The notes under the pieces were generated by a model. It saw only the letters and a program-made list of their open reading frames with translations. It did not search any database and was not told where the DNA came from. A DNA stretch of 64,000 bases. It comes from Roseobacter fucihabitans. GTDB taxonomy: Bacteria > Pseudomonadota > Alphaproteobacteria > Rhodobacterales > Rhodobacteraceae. A program made the position numbers and the translations under genes. The stretch lies in the NCBI RefSeq assembly GCF_014337925.2, contig NZ_CP143423.1:2076501-2140500 (forward strand), read 5' to 3'. Below are positions 23,402 to 31,005 of this stretch, piece after piece (the first letter of the stretch is position 1; each line of letters opens with the position of its first letter).

Positions 23402-24085
23402 ATGATAGACCTTAGCAACGTTTCCAAAACCTTTACCCTGCACAATCAGGGAAGTGCCGTGATAGAAGTGATCAGCAATGTGTCCTTCGCGGTTGCCCCT
23501 GGCGAATGCGTGGCGCTCACTGGGGCCTCTGGTGCGGGTAAATCCACGCTAATGCGGATGATCTATGGCAATTACCTGACGCAGGCAGGTGAAATTCGTA
23601 TTGGCGGTTTGGACATCGTGAGGTCTGAGCCGCGCGATATCATCAAATTGCGCCGTGATGTGCTGGGCTATGTTAGCCAGTTCCTGCGTGTGGTGCCGCG
23701 CGTGCCAACGCTCGATGTGGTTGCAGAGCCTCTGCGGGCTCTAGGCGTCCCGGCAATCGACGCGCAGGACCGCGCATCGGCGCTTCTGACCCAGTTAAAC
23801 ATCCCAGAACGACTGTGGTCATTGTCCCCCACAACCTTCTCGGGTGGTGAGCAACAGCGCGTGAACATTGCCCGTGGCTTTGCCCATACCTACCCTGCGA
23901 TGTTGCTTGATGAACCCACCGCGAGCCTCGACGCTGCGAACCGCGAGGTGGTGCTCTCCTTGATTGAGGACGCCAAAGCGCGCGGCGCGGCCATCATCGG
24001 TATTTTTCATGATGAAGCGGCCCGTACCCGCGTCTGTGATCGTGAAATTGATGTCGGCCACTTTACTCCCGGAATGGCTGCATGA
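23402..24085 (+). CDS. phnL: C-P lyase ABC-type ATPase PhnL
   Basis: A 227-residue ABC protein. Walker A is GASGAGKST, the signature FSGGEQQRVNIARGF, Walker B MLLDEPTASLD, and the switch His is in GIFHDEAARTRVCD. LGYVSQFLRVVPRVPTLDVVAEPL is typical of PhnL. It acts with PhnGHI in forming the ribosyl-phosphonate intermediate. It overlaps phnN by 4 bp. Confidence 0.95.
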   Translation: MIDLSNVSKTFTLHNQGSAVIEVISNVSFAVAPGECVALTGASGAGKSTLMRMIYGNYLTQAGEIRIGGLDIVRSEPRDIIKLRRDVLGYVSQFLRVVPRVPTLDVVAEPLRALGVPAIDAQDRASALLTQLNIPERLWSLSPTTFSGGEQQRVNIARGFAHTYPAMLLDEPTASLDAANREVVLSLIEDAKARGAAIIGIFHDEAARTRVCDREIDVGHFTPGMAA

Positions 24086-24642
24086 CGCTTGCCTCAAAGT
24101 CCGGGGGACGCCTCATCGCGGTTGCCGGCCCATCCGGTGTTGGCAAGGACAGCGTGATGGCGGGCCTAAACGGCGCAATACCCGATTTGCATCTGGTGCG
24201 CCGCGTCATCACACGGACGCCCGACTTGGGCGGCGAGGATTACGATGCGGTGTCAGTGTCACAATTTGAAGCCTTGGTTGAAGATGGGGCTTTTGCTGTG
24301 CATTGGCGCGCGCATGGGCTGTATTACGGCATTCCGATCACCATCAAATACCAACTTGGCAAGGGCACTGATTGCCTTGTCAATTTCTCCCGCAAGGCTC
24401 TGGCCCAAGCGGCCGAGATTTTCCCACGCTTCGTCGTTCTCAACATCACCGCGAAACCGGAAACGCTTGCGCACCGTCTGGCCGCGCGGGGACGTGAGAC
24501 GGAAGAAGAGATCAGCAAACGCCTTGCCCAGGCTGACAAGCCCTTGCCGACTGGGCTTAAGGTGATCCACCTCGCCAACGATGGTCCGCTGTCCCGGACC
24601 ATCGCCCGGGGGGCGGCACTGCTTCAGCCGGTGAGCGTGTAG
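24082..24642 (+). CDS. phnN: ribose 1,5-bisphosphate phosphokinase PhnN
   Basis: A 186-residue kinase of the guanylate-kinase-like fold that makes 5-phosphoribosyl diphosphate from ribose 1,5-bisphosphate, returning the C-P lyase sugar to metabolism. The P-loop is AGPSGVGKDS (residues 15-24), and VRRVITRTPDLGGEDYDAVS resembles the substrate-binding region of the family. The 3' end overlaps the convergent DUF1045 gene by 19 bp, with no room for a terminator between them. Confidence 0.92.
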   Translation: MTLASKSGGRLIAVAGPSGVGKDSVMAGLNGAIPDLHLVRRVITRTPDLGGEDYDAVSVSQFEALVEDGAFAVHWRAHGLYYGIPITIKYQLGKGTDCLVNFSRKALAQAAEIFPRFVVLNITAKPETLAHRLAARGRETEEEISKRLAQADKPLPTGLKVIHLANDGPLSRTIARGAALLQPVSV

Positions 24643-25295
24643 CGATGGATCACCTCGAACCGGCCATCTTCCCGCTCACCGCACAAAGCGATCTGGTCAA
24701 GGGCAAAGGGCGTGGGCAAATCGGGCAGAAACCGGCGTACATTCTCGGTCCAAGTTGGGATCGCAGCGTCGGGCAAACGCCCCGACAAGGTCAAGTGAAA
24801 CCTGAACTCTTCCATCACGTAAGGGTACCCCCACTCAATAAGCAATGCGTCCTGACGTGCACTCAGTCCTGCTGCGCGGCGACGCGCCATCTCCTGCTCC
24901 TCGACTGGTGCGCGGAAACCGTCGAGATCACGAACGCAAGTCTGCGCAACCCGCTGTACGGCCTCTGCTCCGCCCTGCGACGTCAACGCCAGAAACCGAC
25001 CCATCGTCGTCAGCTGCAAACAATCGCAGATCGCGGGGGCAAGCGATGCCGCCATCTCCGAGGTGGCCTGCTCCAGTTCTGCAATTGCGCGCGTTTGGAT
25101 CAAGCGAAACGGCGGCTTCAACGTTCCGTGAAACCCGTATTTACGCGGTGTCATCGTGATGCCACGCAAACCGCTCAAACTTGGCTGACGCGTCTCACAG
25201 CCCTGCACAACATCCCAGCCCAGCCAAGATGCTCCGAAATCGGCCAAGGGCCCATTCGGCGGCACATAGTAAATTGCAAATCGAGAGTATGACAT
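24624..25295 (-). CDS. DUF1045 phosphonate-operon protein, 2H phosphoesterase fold
   Basis: A 223-residue member of the DUF1045 family, which occurs in phosphonate operons. The paired HxT motifs of 2H phosphoesterases are visible as FHGTLKPPF (about residue 60) and FHLTLSGRL (about residue 170). Such enzymes open cyclic phosphates. No phnP is present in the window, so this protein could hydrolyse 5-phosphoribosyl 1,2-cyclic phosphate in its place; that is inference. The start (ATG at 25295 after AAAAGGGGAATTC) is preferred over longer readings. It is convergent with phnN and divergent from phnM. Confidence 0.85.
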   Translation of the reverse strand: MSYSRFAIYYVPPNGPLADFGASWLGWDVVQGCETRQPSLSGLRGITMTPRKYGFHGTLKPPFRLIQTRAIAELEQATSEMAASLAPAICDCLQLTTMGRFLALTSQGGAEAVQRVAQTCVRDLDGFRAPVEEQEMARRRAAGLSARQDALLIEWGYPYVMEEFRFHLTLSGRLPDAAIPTWTENVRRFLPDLPTPFALDQIALCGEREDGRFEVIHRYTLTG

Positions 25296-26487
25296 GAATT
25301 CCCCTTTTCCCACGTCCTCTTTGACAAAGGCTTGTGACAACGATGTGTCAAGCGACCTATGTCTCGCCAATGCGCAGCTTGTGTTGGAAGATCGGGTACT
25401 CACTGGTGCGGTGACAATCGAACAAGGCGTCATTTGTGACATTACTGAAGGGGATCATGTCCCGACCGGTGCCCTGGATTGTGCCGGTGATCTCGTTATT
25501 CCCGGTCTTGTCGAACTGCATACAGATAATGTCGAACGCCATATCGAACCGCGCCCAGAGGTGGACTGGCCACATTTGCCCGCCCTGATCGCGCACGATG
25601 CAGAGCTGGCGTCCACGGGCATCACGACGGTGTTTGACGCCATGCGGGTGGGGTCCATCCATAGCGGCAAGGGACGCTACATCGACTACGCCCGAAAGCT
25701 GGCGGATGAACTCCTGGCGGCCCGCGCGCAGGGGTATTTCAAGATCAGTCATTTCCTGCATCTGCGGGCCGAAATCTGTTCAGAGACGTTGCTTGAGGAA
25801 TTGGCGGCATTCGGAGCATCCGACAGGGTCGGCATCGTCAGCCTGATGGATCACACACCGGGCCAGCGCCAGTTCCGTGACCTGACCGCGCTGAAAACCT
25901 ATGTCGCTAAGAAGCGCGGGATGAACGACGCGGAATTTGGCGAACATGTTGAGACTCTGTTGGGTCTGCAAAAACGCCTTGGGGCAAAGCACGAGGTGGG
26001 TGCCGTGAAAGAAGCCCGCCGCCTGGGTGCAGTTCTGGCCAGCCATGATGATACCACGGCCGATCATGTCGGAACCTCTGCGGGAAACGGCGTGGGTTTT
26101 GCAGAGTTTCCCACAACCGTTGAGGCCGCAGCCGCCTGTCGGATCCACGGCATTGCCGTGATGATGGGCGCACCCAACCTGATCCGCGGCGGATCGCACT
26201 CCGGCAATGTTGCGGCAGAGGATCTCGCAAAAGCCGATCTTCTCGACATTGTCTCGTCAGACTACGTGCCTTCGGCGCTGCTTTTGTCGGCCTTCCGCCT
26301 TGCAGATATCTGGAATGACCTGCCCCGCGCCATTGCTACAGTCACCAGCAACCCCGCAAAGGCCGTGCGGTTGCATGACCGTGGTGCTTTAAAAACAGAT
26401 TTGCGCGGTGACGTTCTGCGCGTGCGCAAAATCGGCGAAACGCCTCTGCTCCGAGGAGTCTGGAGCCAAGGCAACAAAGTTGGCTAA
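25294..26487 (+). CDS. phnM: phosphonate metabolism diphosphatase PhnM
   Basis: A metallo-dependent hydrolase of the amidohydrolase superfamily, up to 397 residues, which removes pyrophosphate from the ribosyl-triphosphate phosphonate intermediate. Motifs are GLVELHTDNVERH (metal site), RPEVDWP, LMDHTPGQRQF, ASHDDTTADHV, RGGSHSGNVAA and SSDYVPSALL. The first ATG shares CATG (25293-25296) with the start of the divergent DUF1045 gene. Family members begin near residue 20 here, so the GTG at 25345 is a serious alternative start and would leave a 49-bp intergenic region. The gene ends 86 bp before an IS end. Confidence 0.93.
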   Translation: MNSPFPTSSLTKACDNDVSSDLCLANAQLVLEDRVLTGAVTIEQGVICDITEGDHVPTGALDCAGDLVIPGLVELHTDNVERHIEPRPEVDWPHLPALIAHDAELASTGITTVFDAMRVGSIHSGKGRYIDYARKLADELLAARAQGYFKISHFLHLRAEICSETLLEELAAFGASDRVGIVSLMDHTPGQRQFRDLTALKTYVAKKRGMNDAEFGEHVETLLGLQKRLGAKHEVGAVKEARRLGAVLASHDDTTADHVGTSAGNGVGFAEFPTTVEAAAACRIHGIAVMMGAPNLIRGGSHSGNVAAEDLAKADLLDIVSSDYVPSALLLSAFRLADIWNDLPRAIATVTSNPAKAVRLHDRGALKTDLRGDVLRVRKIGETPLLRGVWSQGNKVG

Positions 26488-26636
26488 GGTTTTTGGAGGT
26501 TCGGCGGCATAGGTCACAAAGATTTCATGAAACTGTAGCGTAATTGATACGCATCCCCATCATGCATCCACACTGACCTGCGCCCCTTAAACTCCTCCAA
26601 ATTTGTGTAGAGTCTGCCCACCAGCAGGACGGACAA

Positions 26637-26941
26637 ATGAAGGCACGTTTCACGGACGAACAAATCATAGCAATGATCAAAGAACAGGAAGCTGGTGAGA
26701 AGACTGCGGACGTATGTCGGCGGCATGCATTGCCCGGCAGGCGATTGCGAAGCAATCTGCCGGGAGGGGGATCAGCTCAGCAACGTTCTACAAATACAAA
26801 TCGAAGTATGGCGGCATGGAGCCGTCCGACGCGAAGCGACTGGGTGCGCTTGAGGATGAGAACAGCAAGCTGAAGAAGCTGTTGGCTGAACAAATGTTGG
26901 ACAACGCCATGTTGCGAGACATCAATTCAAAAAAACGGTGA
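26637..26941 (+). pseudogene. IS3-family orfA interrupted by a hairpin element
   Basis: The first exon reads MKARFTDEQIIAMIKEQ to VCRRH. After 41 inserted bases the protein resumes as GISSATFYKYKSKYGG and runs to DINSKKR and a stop at 26939. Without the insertion this is a complete 87-residue helix-turn-helix plus leucine-zipper orfA. The insertion shifts the frame, so no full-length protein results unless the element is skipped. The stop overlaps orfB (GTGA). Confidence 0.85.
26728..26768 (+). repeat. hairpin element, type I (41 bp), in IS3 orfA
   Basis: It begins CATTGCCCGGCAG and ends GGGAGGG. The inner stem is GATTGC / GCAATC with a GAA loop; an outer CCCGGCA / TGCCGGG pairs across it, with GGC bulged. 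Removing exactly these bases joins ...CGGCATG to GGATCAGC and restores Arg-His-Gly-Ile-Ser-Ser with no duplication. Confidence 0.85.
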
Positions 26942-27612
26942 CGCCCGCCCTGAAGCGGCAAGCTGTGGTGCATTTGATGGCGGCCCATCAAGTCAGTCAA
27001 CGGCGGGCGTGTGATGTTTTACAAGTTGATCGATCCTCGGTGCGATATCTGTCGCGCCGAGGCGATGATGCTGAGCTAAGAGATGCAATCAAACGCGTTT
27101 CTCGTGAACGACGTCGGTTTGGGTGCCGCCGCATCCACGTGATGATTGCGCGGGAGGGCTTTGAGGTGAACCACAAGAAAGTGCGGCGCATCTATCGTGA
27201 AGAGAGAAGCTTCAGGTGTGTCGCAGGGGTGGCAGGAAGCGCGCGTTGGGAACGAGGAAGCCAATGGCATTGCCCAACGGACCGAACCAGCATTGGTCGT
27301 TGGATTTCGTGTCTGACGCGCTGACAGATGGACGTCGGTTTCGCATTTTGGCAGTTGTCGATGGCTTCAGCCGCGAGAACTTGGTGCTGGTGGCCGACAC
27401 GTCGCTGTCTGGTCAACGGTCGCGCGTGAACTGGATCAGATCATTACTGAACGCGGCATGCCAACGACGATTGTATCGGACAACGGTACCGAGTTCACCA
27501 GCATGGCGATCCTCTCAAATGGGTTCAGGATACCGGCATTGACTGGCACTACATCGCGCCCGGAAGGCCCCGGCAGAACGGTTTCATTGAAAGCTTCAAC
27601 GGCAAGCTGCGC
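26938..27612 (+). pseudogene. IS3-family orfB (DDE integrase), frameshifted and 3' truncated
   Basis: Readable segments are LKRQAVVHLMAAHQVSQRRACDVLQ, RRFGCRRIHVMI, the first catalytic Asp in HWSLDFVSD, the second in VSDNGTEF, and the Glu in [11 protein letters not shown], where the sequence ends at a hairpin element. Three small lesions break the frame: an extra AG after GAAGAG near 27200, one missing base near 27420 and an extra TC near 27514. Unlike the nearby IS3 copy, this orfB shows ordinary decay. Confidence 0.8.
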
Positions 27613-27649
27613 CCCTCTCGTGCATGTAAACATGCACTGCCGGGCAGTG
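27613..27649 (-). repeat. hairpin element, type II (37 bp), at the IS3/IS1595 junction
   Basis: On the minus strand it starts CACTGCCCGGCAGTG and ends GAGAGGG. Its variable stem is GTGCATGT / ACATGCAC with a TT loop. It lies exactly where IS3 orfB stops and IS1595 DNA starts. Confidence 0.85.
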
Positions 27650-28216
27650 GATACCGGTTCAGTTCTCAGTGACATTCAACAGCCCTGGTATGCGCCATGT
27701 CGCGGACGTACTCGCCAGCGGAGTGCCGAACTTCTTGTGTGTGTAGCCTTTGGCCTCAAGGCCGTTGTAGGCGCGGAATTCGTCGCCGCCCTCTGGTGCG
27801 TTTTCCTGCGCGAAACCAACCAGTGTGGCCGCATTGGTGCGCTTAACAGGCTTGGCGACAACTTGGCCACTTTCGTCGCGCATACCAACAACAGCGATCT
27901 TGCCAACCGCGCCACGACCCGCTTTCAACTTCTTATCGGCGTGCTTGTTCTTCTCTTTTCCGCCCACATAGGTTTCGTCCACCTGAACCTGGCCGTCCAT
28001 CTTATCAGAGCCGCCACCCATCCAAGTTTCACGTATGCGCTGCGCAAGGAACCATGCGGTTTTCTGAGTGACACCCAATTCGCGAGCCATCTGAGTGCTA
28101 GGGATGCCTTTGCGGGCGCTGGTGAGCATGAAGATAGCCAGCAACCACTTTTGCAGGGGCAGACGACTTTCGGCCAGAACCGTGCCTGTGCGAACGCTGA
28201 AATGCTTGCGGCAATC
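27650..28216 (-). pseudogene. IS1595-family transposase, central and C-terminal part
   Basis: On the minus strand this continues the transposase begun at 29667: CRKHFSVRTGTVLAESRL, ARELGVTQKTAWFLAQRIRETW, and the ISXO2-like catalytic core VQVDETYVGGKEKNKHA, to YTHKK. A missing G near the 3' end changes the frame (HSAGEYVRDMAHTRAVE reads in another frame), and the last part of the gene, with the IS end, is lost at the hairpin element ending at 27649. The IS3-family copy at 28217-29493 separates the two parts. Confidence 0.82.
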
Positions 28217-28279
28217 TGGACCTGTCGCGGTTTGATGCCGCTCCTTTGATAGCATTTACTGCACCAAAAGAGACGGACT

Positions 28280-28555
28280 ATGGGACTGAAACGAACGGAC
28301 GAATTCCGCCAAGATGCAATGCGTATCGCATTGACCAGTGGGCTGACGCGCAAGCAGGTGGCTGGCGATCTGGGTGTCGGGATGTCGACGCTGAACAAAT
28401 GGATCACCGCGCACCGAGATACAGACGTGGTGTCGAAAGAGGATTTGAGCCTCGCTCAAGAGAATGATCGACTTCGACGGGAGAACCGACTCCTGAAGGA
28501 GAAGAGGGAGATCTTAAAAAGGGCCACCCAGTTCTTCGCGGGCCTAAAGCAATGA
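28280..28555 (+). CDS. IS3-family transposase orfA
   Basis: An intact 91-residue orfA: MGLKRTDEFRQDAMRIALTS, a helix-turn-helix (QVAGDLGVGMSTLNKW) and a C-terminal leucine-zipper region (LAQENDRLRRENRLLKEKREILKRA). TTAAAAAG at about 28514 could be the slippery site used for the OrfAB fusion in this family. The stop overlaps the orfB ATG (ATGA). Confidence 0.88.
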   Translation: MGLKRTDEFRQDAMRIALTSGLTRKQVAGDLGVGMSTLNKWITAHRDTDVVSKEDLSLAQENDRLRRENRLLKEKREILKRATQFFAGLKQ

Positions 28556-28569
28556 GATTTAGGTTTATC

Positions 28570-28605
28570 CACTGCCCGGCAGTGCATTGAAAATGCACGA
28601 GAGGG
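28570..28605 (+). repeat. hairpin element, type II (36 bp), first in orfB
   Basis: It starts CACTGCCCGGCAGTG and ends GAGAGGG, with stem GTGCATT / AATGCAC and a GAA loop. Removal joins Phe-Ile to Glu-Glu-His-Arg. At 36 bp it keeps the frame but brings an in-frame TGA at the stem-loop boundary. Confidence 0.88.
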
Positions 28606-28740
28606 GAAGAACACAGGTGCAGCTTCCCAGCCAACCGGTTGTGCAATGTTGTGGGCGTCAGCACAAGCGGGCTACGCGCATTCCGCAACCGTCCTGCCAG
28701 CCGAAGACGGCGGTCTGACTTGGTCACGCTTGCGCACATC

Positions 28741-28776
28741 CATTGCCCGGCAGTGTATTGAAAATACATGAGAGGG
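28741..28776 (+). repeat. hairpin element, type II (36 bp), second in orfB
   Basis: It starts CATTGCCCGGCAGTG and ends GAGAGGG. The stem GTGTATT / AATACAT (one G-T pair) covaries with that of the first copy. Removal joins His-Ile to Lys-Glu-Arg. It also holds an in-frame TGA. Confidence 0.88.
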
Positions 28777-28934
28777 AAGGAGCGGTCCCGTCTCAGCCCG
28801 GGCAGCTATGGTCGACCGCGCATGACTGAAGAGCTGAAGGAGATCGGTCTGAATGTTGGCCATCGTCGTGTTGGTCGTCTGATGCGTCAGAACGGAATAA
28901 CCGTGGTCAGGACCCGTAAACACAAGGTCACAAC

Positions 28935-28975
28935 CATTGCCCGGCAGGCGATTGCACAGCAATCTGCTGAGAGGG
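28935..28975 (+). repeat. hairpin element, type I (41 bp), third in orfB
   Basis: It starts CATTGCCCGGCAGGC and ends GAGAGGG, with stem GATTGC / GCAATC and an ACA loop. Removal joins Thr-Thr to Asp-Ser-Asp and restores the frame. Confidence 0.88.
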
Positions 28976-29231
28976 GGACAGCGACCATAAGTTCAACATA
29001 GCGCCGAACCTGCTGGATCGGGACTTCACCGCAGATGCGCCAAATCAGAAGTGGGCTGGTGACATCAGCTACGTTTGGACCCGAGAGGGTTGGTTGTACC
29101 TGGCTGTCATCCTCGACCTGCATTCAAGGCGCGTCGTTGGTTGGGCCGTCAGTAATCGCATGAAGCGCGATCTGGCAATTAGGGCGCTGAAGATGGCGAT
29201 TGCATTCCGGTTACCGCCGAAAGACTGCATT

Positions 29232-29272
29232 TATTACCCGACAGGCGATTACAAGGTAATCTGCCGAGAGGG
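29232..29272 (+). repeat. hairpin element, type I (41 bp), fourth in orfB, beside the catalytic Asp
   Basis: It starts TATTACCCGACAGGC and ends GAGAGGG. The stem GATTAC / GTAATC shows a compensatory change relative to the other copies; the loop is AAG. Removal joins Cys-Ile to His-His-Thr-Asp, the second catalytic motif. Confidence 0.85.
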
Positions 29273-29386
29273 CACCACACGGATCGCGGCAGCCAATATT
29301 GTTCTCATGATTATCAGAAGGTCCTGCGCCAGCATGGCTTCAAGGTATCGATGAGCGGCAAAGGAAATTGCTATGATAATGCCGCC

Positions 29387-29427
29387 CCCTCTCGGCAGAT
29401 TGCTTTGCAATCGCCTGCCGGGCAATG
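29387..29427 (-). repeat. hairpin element, type I (41 bp), fifth in orfB, inverted
   Basis: On the minus strand it starts CATTGCCCGGCAGGC and ends GAGAGGG, with stem GATTGC / GCAATC and an AAA loop. To its left orfB stops at NCYDNAA; to its right only the last codons (AFERKVA) remain, so a deletion of about 150 bp ends at this element. Confidence 0.85.
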
Positions 29428-29493
29428 GTACGCTTTTGAACGGAAAGTGGCTTAAACGAGCACCTGGGGCGGCACAAAAGCGCGACAGGTCCA

Positions 29494-29667
29494 GTCCTTG
29501 CAGCGGTAGGCCATTGGTTTGTGGTCTTTACACTCAGTTACGGAAACCGAACCGCAATAACCGCATACCGCCTCACCAGCCCAGCGGCGGTTCTCGAAAA
29601 AGAGGCGGGCCGCTTCCTCATTTGAGAATTTCTGGAAGAATTCAAGTGTGCTAGGTGTATCGGTCAT
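29494..29667 (-). pseudogene. IS1595-family transposase, N-terminal part
   Basis: From ATG 29667 on the minus strand: MTDTPSTLEFFQKFSNEEA, then a zinc-ribbon start CGYCGS and AYRCKD, interrupted by the IS3-family insertion and continued at 28215. The expected IS end lies near 29710 (GAGATTAAACTAGCC upstream of the gene), about 75 bp from the sufS stop, but its inverted repeat cannot be confirmed because the other end is missing. Confidence 0.82.
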
Positions 29668-29784
29668 GGGCCTAATCTCTCTTTTTGAGATTAAACTAGC
29701 CAATTGGCCAATGAAACAGCGTGTACATTATGTGCCCGCGCGCAAATTTCTCCACCACCTCAAGTGGCGCTGCCGACGCCCGCG

Positions 29785-31005
29785 TCAGGCAAAAAGATCA
29801 TGCGCAAGTTCAAGCGCATCCACCAGAACATCCACCTCAGCTTCGGTATTATAGAGCCCGAATGACGCCCGGCAGCTCGCAGTGATCCCCATATGCTCCA
29901 TCAGGGGGCCGACGCAATGCTGCCCTGCCCTAACGGCCACGCCCTTTTTGTCCAGAATGGTGGATATATCATGCGCATGAGCCGCACCGTCCATCGTGAA
30001 ACTAAAGATCGCGGCCTTATCCGGCGTGGTGCCTTGTACCTGCAACCAATTGAGACCACTCAGTTTTTGTACGGTATAATCGCGCAGCCGATCTTCATGG
30101 GCGGCGATGTTATGCATACCCAAGCCCATCATGTAATCGAGCGCCACGCCAAGACCGATGGTCTGCACAATACCCGGCGTGCCCGCCTCGAACATCATCG
30201 GCGGATCGTTATAGGTGACGGTCTCCTTGCTCACCTCTTTGATCATGTCGCCACCGCCGATAAAGGGGCGCATTTCCGCCATCCGCTCGGATTTCACATA
30301 GATCGCGCCTGAGCCTGAGGGGCCGTAGAGTTTATGCCCGGTGATCGCAAAGAAATCACATCCGATATCGGAAACATCCACGGGTTGATGCACCGCGGAT
30401 TGGCTGCCATCCACCAGCACCGGCACCCCGCGCGCATGCGCTTCACGGGTAATGGTTTTCACATCAACACGCGTTCCCAGAACATTGGACAGATGGGAAA
30501 CCGCAACAAGCTTCGTTTTCGGCCCGATGGCGTCAATCACGGCCTGGGGATCCAGATGGCCGGTGCTGTCGACATCGACCCATTTCAACACGACACCCTG
30601 GCGCTCTCGCAGGAAATGCCAGGGTACGATATTTGCGTGATGTTCCATGACGCTGAGAATGATCTCATCGCCCGCCTGCATCCGCGGCATGGCCCAGCCA
30701 TAGGCGACCATGTTGATGCCTTCCGTGGTGCCGGAATTCAGGATGATTTCATCCTCGGAGGCGGCGTTAAGAAATTTGGCGATCACGCCGCGCACGGATT
30801 CGTATTTGTCCGTGGCCAGATTGGACAGAAAATGTAGCCCGCGATGCACGTTGGCGTATTCATTGGCATAGGCGTTGGTGATCGCGTCGATGACTACCTG
30901 CGGCTTTTGCGCCGAAGCCCCATTGTCCAGATAGACCAGCGGCTTGCCGTTGACCTCACGGCTTAGTATCGGAAAGTCACGACGAATTTGATCGACGTCA
31001 TACAT
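29785..31005 (-). CDS. sufS: SufS-type cysteine desulfurase
   Basis: A 406-residue group II cysteine desulfurase. It supplies persulfide sulfur to the SufBCD scaffold. The PLP lysine is in ITGHKLYGPSG, the active-site Cys364 in RAGQHCVGPLM, and VYLDNGASAQKP and SNVLGTR are typical SufS motifs. The start overlaps the end of the preceding Yip1-like gene by 8 bp. It is now the last gene of the operon before the IS nest; the sufT- and sufA-type genes that often follow sufS are not in the window. Confidence 0.95.
   Translation of the reverse strand: MYDVDQIRRDFPILSREVNGKPLVYLDNGASAQKPQVVIDAITNAYANEYANVHRGLHFLSNLATDKYESVRGVIAKFLNAASEDEIILNSGTTEGINMVAYGWAMPRMQAGDEIILSVMEHHANIVPWHFLRERQGVVLKWVDVDSTGHLDPQAVIDAIGPKTKLVAVSHLSNVLGTRVDVKTITREAHARGVPVLVDGSQSAVHQPVDVSDIGCDFFAITGHKLYGPSGSGAIYVKSERMAEMRPFIGGGDMIKEVSKETVTYNDPPMMFEAGTPGIVQTIGLGVALDYMMGLGMHNIAAHEDRLRDYTVQKLSGLNWLQVQGTTPDKAAIFSFTMDGAAHAHDISTILDKKGVAVRAGQHCVGPLMEHMGITASCRASFGLYNTEAEVDVLVDALELAHDLFA

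Follow-up and report, generated by a model that had tools for sequence, protein, structure and literature searches.

The window analysed here, a stretch of 64,000 nucleotides of the Roseobacter fucihabitans genome (contig NZ_CP143423.1, positions 2,076,501 to 2,140,500), contains seven copies of a hairpin element (e1 to e7) in insertion sequence (IS) DNA. The mobility of these units is read from comparison: related loci occur with and without them. On balance we favour the view that the family consists of non-autonomous mobile hairpins of 34-45 bp, which would be moved by an enzyme acting in trans on single strands, with ISs as their vehicles. The movement of the smallest bacterial repeats is a long-standing question, as clean comparisons of the states before and after insertion are seldom available. 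These culturable marine bacteria offer dozens of empty sites together with a target motif, fixed ends and a covarying stem, so that the mover can be searched for and the movement can be tested.

Definition, insertion sites and structure of the family

Each element consists of a 12-nt 5′ end, CRYTGCCCGGCA (mostly with CAY), a variable stem-loop and the 7-nt 3′ end GAGAGGG; its length is set by the variable region, which measures 15-26 nt between the two ends. A sequence-only reading of the window had placed seven such copies in 2.7 kb, and all seven are present where it located them (Table 1). The ends that it took to be common to all, CAYTGCCCGGCAG on the 5′ side and GAGAGGG on the 3′ side, are shared except that e1 ends in GGGAGGG and e6 begins with TATTACCCGACAG. 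Its two size classes (41 and 36-37 bp) hold for the window, and more classes are found beyond it. Further window copies were sought with the bare 13-mer and the exact pattern only.

Searching for the exact pattern yielded 87 matches in the 4.85-Mb genome and none for the reversed-pattern control. Since this pattern recovers only 5 of the 7 window copies, 87 is a lower bound. The bare 13-mer with 3 mismatches is uninformative on its own (74 found, 60.6 expected), but both ends at the proper spacing occur far more often than chance would allow. At least one exact match was present in 89 of 295 genomes of the same bacterial family (294 genera), a few of which may be due to chance, as the reversed pattern gave 2 matches over the same set. 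The genome of the window carries the most matches of the 295, and the only other genome of its genus sampled has none. Matches also occurred in 74 plasmid records, and the genera named among the matches listed all belong to the Rhodobacterales; 58 of the 60 listed plasmid matches have no annotated feature beneath them, according to a gene table that excludes pseudogenes, one lies in a hypothetical protein gene and one in an unannotated record. No phage record searched with the pattern gave a match. The genome-wide check that the earlier reading had proposed, run here as a pattern search, thus revealed a large family in the own genome and in its relatives. A few copies lie outside the Rhodobacterales, for example on a Vreelandella neptunia contig (L050), a gammaproteobacterial copy whose surrounding DNA resembles roseobacter IS loci. 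None of the 84 chromosomal exact matches has another starting less than 150 bp away. At L052, in Puniceibacterium sediminis, two elements of opposite orientation stand ∼16 bp apart, in a REPIN-like arrangement; the scan that supplied loci such as L050 and L052 comprised at least 119 stretches.

For the analysis of insertion sites a set of 128 distinct sites was used, obtained from 156 by leaving out viral contigs, 40 hand-listed loci (chosen from record titles), and weak stems. The 5′ start is CAY at 92 of these sites, CGY at 28 and another sequence at 8. A homologous empty site, aligned ungapped within 7-8 nt of the join, was found for 65 of the 128 when homologs were required to be less than 98% identical, to come from another locus and to align across the join; a stricter method gave 40. 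Excision of the exact unit, from the 5′ CRY to GAGAGGG, recreates the homologous sequence. The empty junctions read TTTATC|GAAGAA for e3, CACATC|AAGGAG for e4, AAGGTCACAAC|GGACAGC for e5 and TGCAT(C/T)|CACCAC for e6. Filled and empty sites align without duplicated bases, and hence a target site duplication is absent. When the nearest empty site of each of the 65 was taken, a loose target consensus, YCATC^G, emerged, with C at −4 in 45, A at −3 in 41, T at −2 in 42, C at −1 in 41 and G at +1 in 40. The orientation relative to the gene is sense in 36 cases and antisense in 29 (p 0.46), and in the 28 clearest cases 13 are sense and 15 antisense. The element length is divisible by three at 20 of the 128 sites, and the phase of insertion varies. 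These alignments indicate that a unit inserts singly, mostly seamlessly, after a loose YCATC and usually before G, in both orientations.

The earlier reading had asked whether homologous transposase genes exist without the hairpins. Such empty sites were found directly for e1 and e3-e6, and for e2 through its sister copy L225 in the own genome, which keeps the IS3 gene on both flanks and has empty homologs; none was found for e7. Judged by comparison, the elements are insertions; neither an intron, an in-frame insert nor a fixed portion of the IS would fit. The alternative that they belong as constant components to particular IS families and multiplied by local duplication could draw on the near-identical copies of one IS3 element that have e3-e7 in common; homologous genes that are empty at the same nucleotide (65/128 sites) refute it, and the same family is found in several unrelated IS types, so that we give it practically no weight. 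The proposal of a small non-autonomous mobile element thus finds support in the size of the family and in the empty sites, as far as comparison goes. The viral contigs (59 stretches) were kept out of the site counts and entered some sequence logos and the open-frame table; 22 distinct sites on them passed the first filter, 14 with at least 60% of the variable region paired, and some of them are probably real elements.

The stem was analysed on the variable regions. Over 188 distinct regions 77% of the bases are paired, against 39% after shuffling. A nine-pair stem was tested on 64 distinct 22-nt regions, one further region with a different loop having been excluded by hand. Pairing is present in 96.2% of the 576 cells, in 8 of the 9 stem pairs both sides have changed, and the covariation score of 0.576 compares with 0.156 (sd 0.015) for shuffled sequences. 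Slid-structure controls pair at 31.8-56.9%, a comparison biased in favour of the tested structure, which was written from the same sequences. What is conserved is the structure of the stem; the bases that form it drift or are exchanged for others. The only match in the window at the Rfam gathering score is a tRNA located elsewhere in it, and the best weak match near the elements reached 18.4 bits (cut-off 38).

Association with insertion sequences

Of 50 sites in the own genome, 46 fall in sequence that recurs among the fetched loci or also occurs in other genomes; two of the remaining four were read by eye as transposases. For other genomes, 71 genome-contig sites with a stem were considered, and four of them (L061, L083, L094 and L099) were dropped by taxon. 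With the elements masked, the flanks recurred in another locus for 49 of the remaining 67 sites, compared with 9 of 232 controls, the loci having themselves been chosen for holding an element; the unmasked first run gave 50/67 and 3/199. Recurrence falls with distance, from 49/122 at 300-700 bp to 15/109 at 700-1500 bp and 0/86 at 1500-3000 bp. The flank test shows that the same sequence families are hit repeatedly, and Pfam identifies those families. A scan of 133 of the 141 flank segments matched 22 Pfam families: 13 of transposases (rve, HTH_21, DDE_Tnp_1, TnpB_IS66, Transposase_mut, DDE_3 and others), 5 generic helix-turn-helix (HTH) families and 4 others with one member each (Peptidase_S58, SnoaL_4, Amidase_2 and Cro). 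The largest family count was 12 members. Many segments had no match, partly because frames were chosen by length. Of ten segments scanned singly, two matched (a transposase DDE domain and an HTH-like domain), and of twenty harder ones three matched transposase families, one matched HTH domains only and 16 had no match. The statement that the elements are confined to transposase genes therefore nearly holds for the own genome; elsewhere it has to be reduced to a strong bias.

Within the window, IS3-type transposase genes hold e1 and e3-e6 in sense, and e2 and e7 are antisense where the gene is broken off. The IS3 element carrying e3-e7 has multiplied in the genome. Its inner 256-bp segment was found at 11 places, the window's included: seven whole and one partial at 100% identity, and three at 76-82%. 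The whole element with e3-e7 is present in five copies, again with that of the window, at least 99.4% identical, while other copies are cut short; four of the five whole copies have the same ends with different flanks. Local abundance is thus partly due to hitchhiking. No IS3 copy with a gained element was seen within the aligned stretches. At e7 this IS3 element lacks the end of orfB that related copies still have, and the orfB-truncated element was probably moved by the transposase of another copy.

Further evidence comes from homologous sites that are occupied in both loci, with flanks alike but diverged. In four of seven such pairs the stems are alike or identical, also across genera (e.g., L124/L127 and L059/L102), as expected if an IS carried the element along. 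In two pairs the stems are entirely different (the e4 site and L043; L041 and L093) and in one partly different (L089 and L097). At the e3 site the stem of L088 is alike and that of L100 different. Different stems at one nucleotide could mean either that the target was reused or that the stem was exchanged in place. At e2 the IS3 gene is joined to the end of an IS1595-type element, whereas at L225 it flanks the hairpin on either side. The elements mark rearrangements, whether by ordinary recombination or by an enzyme of their own. The own-genome loci L228 (position 1705, − strand) and L276 (2246, + strand) have the left flank in common and differ in stem and right flank, and the junction falls within the element or at its edge. 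At L271, L309, L310 and L312 of the own genome, the element sits inside a multi-copy Y1 (IS200-type) transposase gene; hence the class of enzyme that is a candidate mover is also a victim.

Possible mechanism of movement

The explanation that we favour for the family can be put as follows. An enzyme supplied in trans would act on single-stranded DNA, in which it would recognise the hairpin and the two ends, would cut after YCATC and after GAGAGGG, and would join the ends without repair synthesis, the stem being required as a structure only. In its seamless joint, its short target motif on the 5′ side, the position of the hairpin close to the 3′ end and the unconstrained sequence of the stem, the family resembles elements with HUH-type mobility. 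By analogy, single-strand mobility of this type is tentatively the most likely mechanism, and an enzyme of the IS200/IS605-, IS91- or Helitron-like class would be the candidate. An element that landed in an IS would then be copied along with it and carried between species, and most genomes, including that of R. fucihabitans, would hold elements imported with ISs rather than ones that jumped locally. We infer the role of ISs as vehicles from the IS3 copies, the flank recurrence, the stems at shared sites, the counts of rve transposases and the sites in the own genome.

The search for a mover compared all 28 genomes with at least 4 exact matches (element-rich) with 29 element-free genomes, hand-picked for similar size from the 206 without a match. 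Y1 (HUH) genes were detected in 7/28 element-rich and 0/29 element-free genomes (p 0.0045), and Y2 (IS91) genes in 9/28 and 5/29 (p 0.23); Y2 matches below 1e-50, a cut chosen afterwards, were found in 7 and 1 (p 0.025). Both associations are confounded, because rve transposases are more numerous in element-rich genomes (median 7, compared with 3; p 2e-5). Genes with RVT_1, i.e., reverse transcriptases, show no association (10/28 and 11/29). Neither a parent element nor a necessary enzyme was found among the Y1, Y2 and RVT_1 comparisons and 30 own-genome stretches, which were taken from the first 100 of 192 matches to the bare 5′ end and proved to be complete or decayed elements or chance matches. 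In the Y1 loci of 6 of the 7 Y1-bearing genomes, compared at the 5′ end only and with up to 2 substitutions, clear matching 5′ ends were present only in elements inserted in or near those loci.

Several observations weigh against the favoured explanation. No Y1 match was obtained in 21 of the 28 element-rich genomes and no Y2 match in 19; none of the Y1 or IS91 elements examined has ends that match the hairpin, and none of the 30 bare-5′-end stretches contained a long form with a gene inside it. Within the element-rich group the numbers of elements and of rve transposases are uncorrelated (Spearman 0.15, p 0.44), which the vehicle idea does not predict, and this idea alone does not account for the small number of non-IS sites among the 50. 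For 63 of the 128 sites there is no empty homolog in the set, and at least 3 filled sites have an extra or changed base beside the element. Finally, for 13 of the 50 own-genome sites the fetched own loci include an empty homolog, but all of these are less than 90% identical; there is no sign of recent jumping in the own genome.

The main rival of the vehicle idea is active targeting of ISs, through transposition intermediates or sequences shared by ISs, so that the bias would be a property of the mobility mechanism itself. The bias in the own genome (46/50) and in others (49/67), the insertion of e3-e6 into one IS3 gene, and the different stems at the same nucleotide in two genomes (e4 and L043, e3 and L100) are all compatible with it, but the loose YCATC^G is the only common feature found in the targets, several unrelated IS families are affected, and the bias can also arise from ISs that carry elements between genomes; we consider targeting possible but rather unlikely. 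A related and somewhat more doubtful proposal is that the family represents a class of hyperparasites, ∼40-nt hairpins that would specifically enter mobile elements by means of an enzyme reading only the ends and the stem shape, and that ISs of many families would ferry them between species and be inactivated or rearranged by them. The strong IS bias would also make it possible to measure how one mobile element lives at the expense of others and disables them. Another conceivable route of spread is an RNA intermediate, i.e., a hairpin RNA copied to DNA and then inserted, as has reportedly been suggested for the cyanobacterial small dispersed repeat (SDR) elements. The compensatory stem changes and the small size would fit RNA or a single DNA strand equally well; RVT_1 genes, however, show no relation to the presence of the elements, most insertions are seamless and follow a short target motif on the 5′ side, and we regard this route as improbable.

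Integron-like or other site-specific recombination between folded hairpins appears slightly less probable again. It would account for chimeric junctions such as that of L228 and L276 and for the location of e2 and e7 at junctions, but the attC R-box is present in none of the 128 sites, and several chimeras involve nearly identical elements and could have arisen by ordinary recombination. That hairpins are tolerated in genes as tiny introns or through ribosomal bypass was considered because e3-e6 all lie in sense in one orfB, which is otherwise stop-free up to e7 once the hairpins are removed. Antisense insertions, however, are about as common as sense ones, the insertion phase varies, and with its end replaced by e7 this transposase is defective anyway. 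The 36:29 orientation, the lengths and the missing gene end at e7 led to the rejection of this reading, which we consider highly improbable; a plain open-frame test over 113 sites was too noisy and was not used.

Comparison with known repeats and setting in the window

The family belongs with the very small mobile hairpin repeats, and its nearest known kinds are the SDR elements of Nostoc and REP/REPIN sequences. SDR elements of Nostoc and relatives, reportedly described by Elhai and colleagues in 2008, are said to be tiny hairpins with compensatory changes that often lie inside mobile elements. The elements of R. fucihabitans resemble them in being tiny hairpin units with compensatory stem changes and signs of mobility, and differ, as far as that description goes, in their 34-45 bp, conserved ends, YCATC^G target, occurrence in Rhodobacterales and location mostly in IS genes. 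Miniature elements derived from IS200/IS605 have hairpin ends, make no target duplication and use a short 5′ target motif. A hairpin, the lack of a duplication and such a motif are found here too, but there is one hairpin only, and no Y1 element with a matching 5′ end was found. The attC sites of integrons likewise have conserved ends around a variable hairpin; the R-box (GTTRRRY / RYYYAAC, exact motif only), however, is found at 0/128 sites. Classical miniature inverted-repeat transposable elements of DDE transposons differ in that no target site duplication is made here, and CRISPR repeats in that the family forms no regular identical array, the spacing being irregular and the stems different.

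Repetitive extragenic palindromic (REP) and REPIN sequences are moved by RAYT (Y1) enzymes (Bertels and Rainey 2011, PMC3116915). The present elements are similarly short, palindromic and non-autonomous, and a Y1 enzyme is a plausible mover for them too. They differ in being single hairpins rather than inverted doublets, and in lying mostly in transposase genes or IS DNA rather than extragenically. None of the 128 sites has GTAG within 16 nt of its start or the complement within 16 nt of its end (the CGTC tag was outside this test), and no Y1 gene was found in 21 of the 28 element-rich genomes. The sequence-only reading, too, had not recognised the elements as attC sites, REP units or CRISPR repeats. 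Rickettsia palindromic elements (reviewed in PMC2229807) are 105-146 bp long and fused in frame inside genes; they too are palindromic selfish DNA within genes, but here the units have 34-45 bp and occur in any frame and any orientation. Among the papers listed by searches of the open-licence PMC literature no description of this hairpin family was found, and the main text of a paper on tagged palindromic repeats (PMC3733652) does not contain the names Rhodobacter, Roseobacter, Ruegeria or Dinoroseobacter.

The positions of the seven elements and of the IS genes around them are collected in Table 1. An IS1595-type gene is interrupted here by the IS3-type element that carries e3-e7.

Table 1. 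Hairpin elements and insertion sequence features in the window (positions are those of the window)
Feature	Position	Strand	Remarks
Hairpin element e1, 41 bp	26728..26768	+	orfA of truncated IS3-type element, sense; empty homologous sites (window position 26727)
Hairpin element e2, 37 bp	27613..27649	-	antisense; IS3 gene to the right, end of IS1595-type element to the left
Hairpin element e3, 36 bp	28570..28605	+	orfB of IS3, sense; empty homologs
Hairpin element e4, 36 bp	28741..28776	+	orfB of IS3, sense; empty homologs
Hairpin element e5, 41 bp	28935..28975	+	orfB of IS3, sense; empty homologs
Hairpin element e6, 41 bp, 5′ end diverged	29232..29272	+	orfB of IS3, sense; empty homologs
Hairpin element e7, 41 bp	29387..29427	-	antisense; deletion junction near the 3′ end of orfB
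IS3-type element carrying e3-e7	28217..29493	+	ends TGGACCTGTCGCG...CGCGACAGGTCCA; further genomic copies have other flanks
orfA of the e3-e7 IS3 element (HTH_Tnp_1)	28280..28555	+	
Truncated second IS3-type element (HTH_21 region)	26574..27612	+	ends approximate
IS1595-type transposase gene, C-terminal part	27650..28216	-	split by the IS3 element
IS1595-type transposase gene (same gene), N-terminal part, zinc ribbon	29494..29703	-	

To the right of the IS cluster (29785-31005) lies an aminotransferase class V gene. To its left (23402-26487) are genes for an ABC transporter, a guanylate-kinase-like protein, a DUF1045 protein and an amidohydrolase, a group that looks like a portion of a phosphonate operon.

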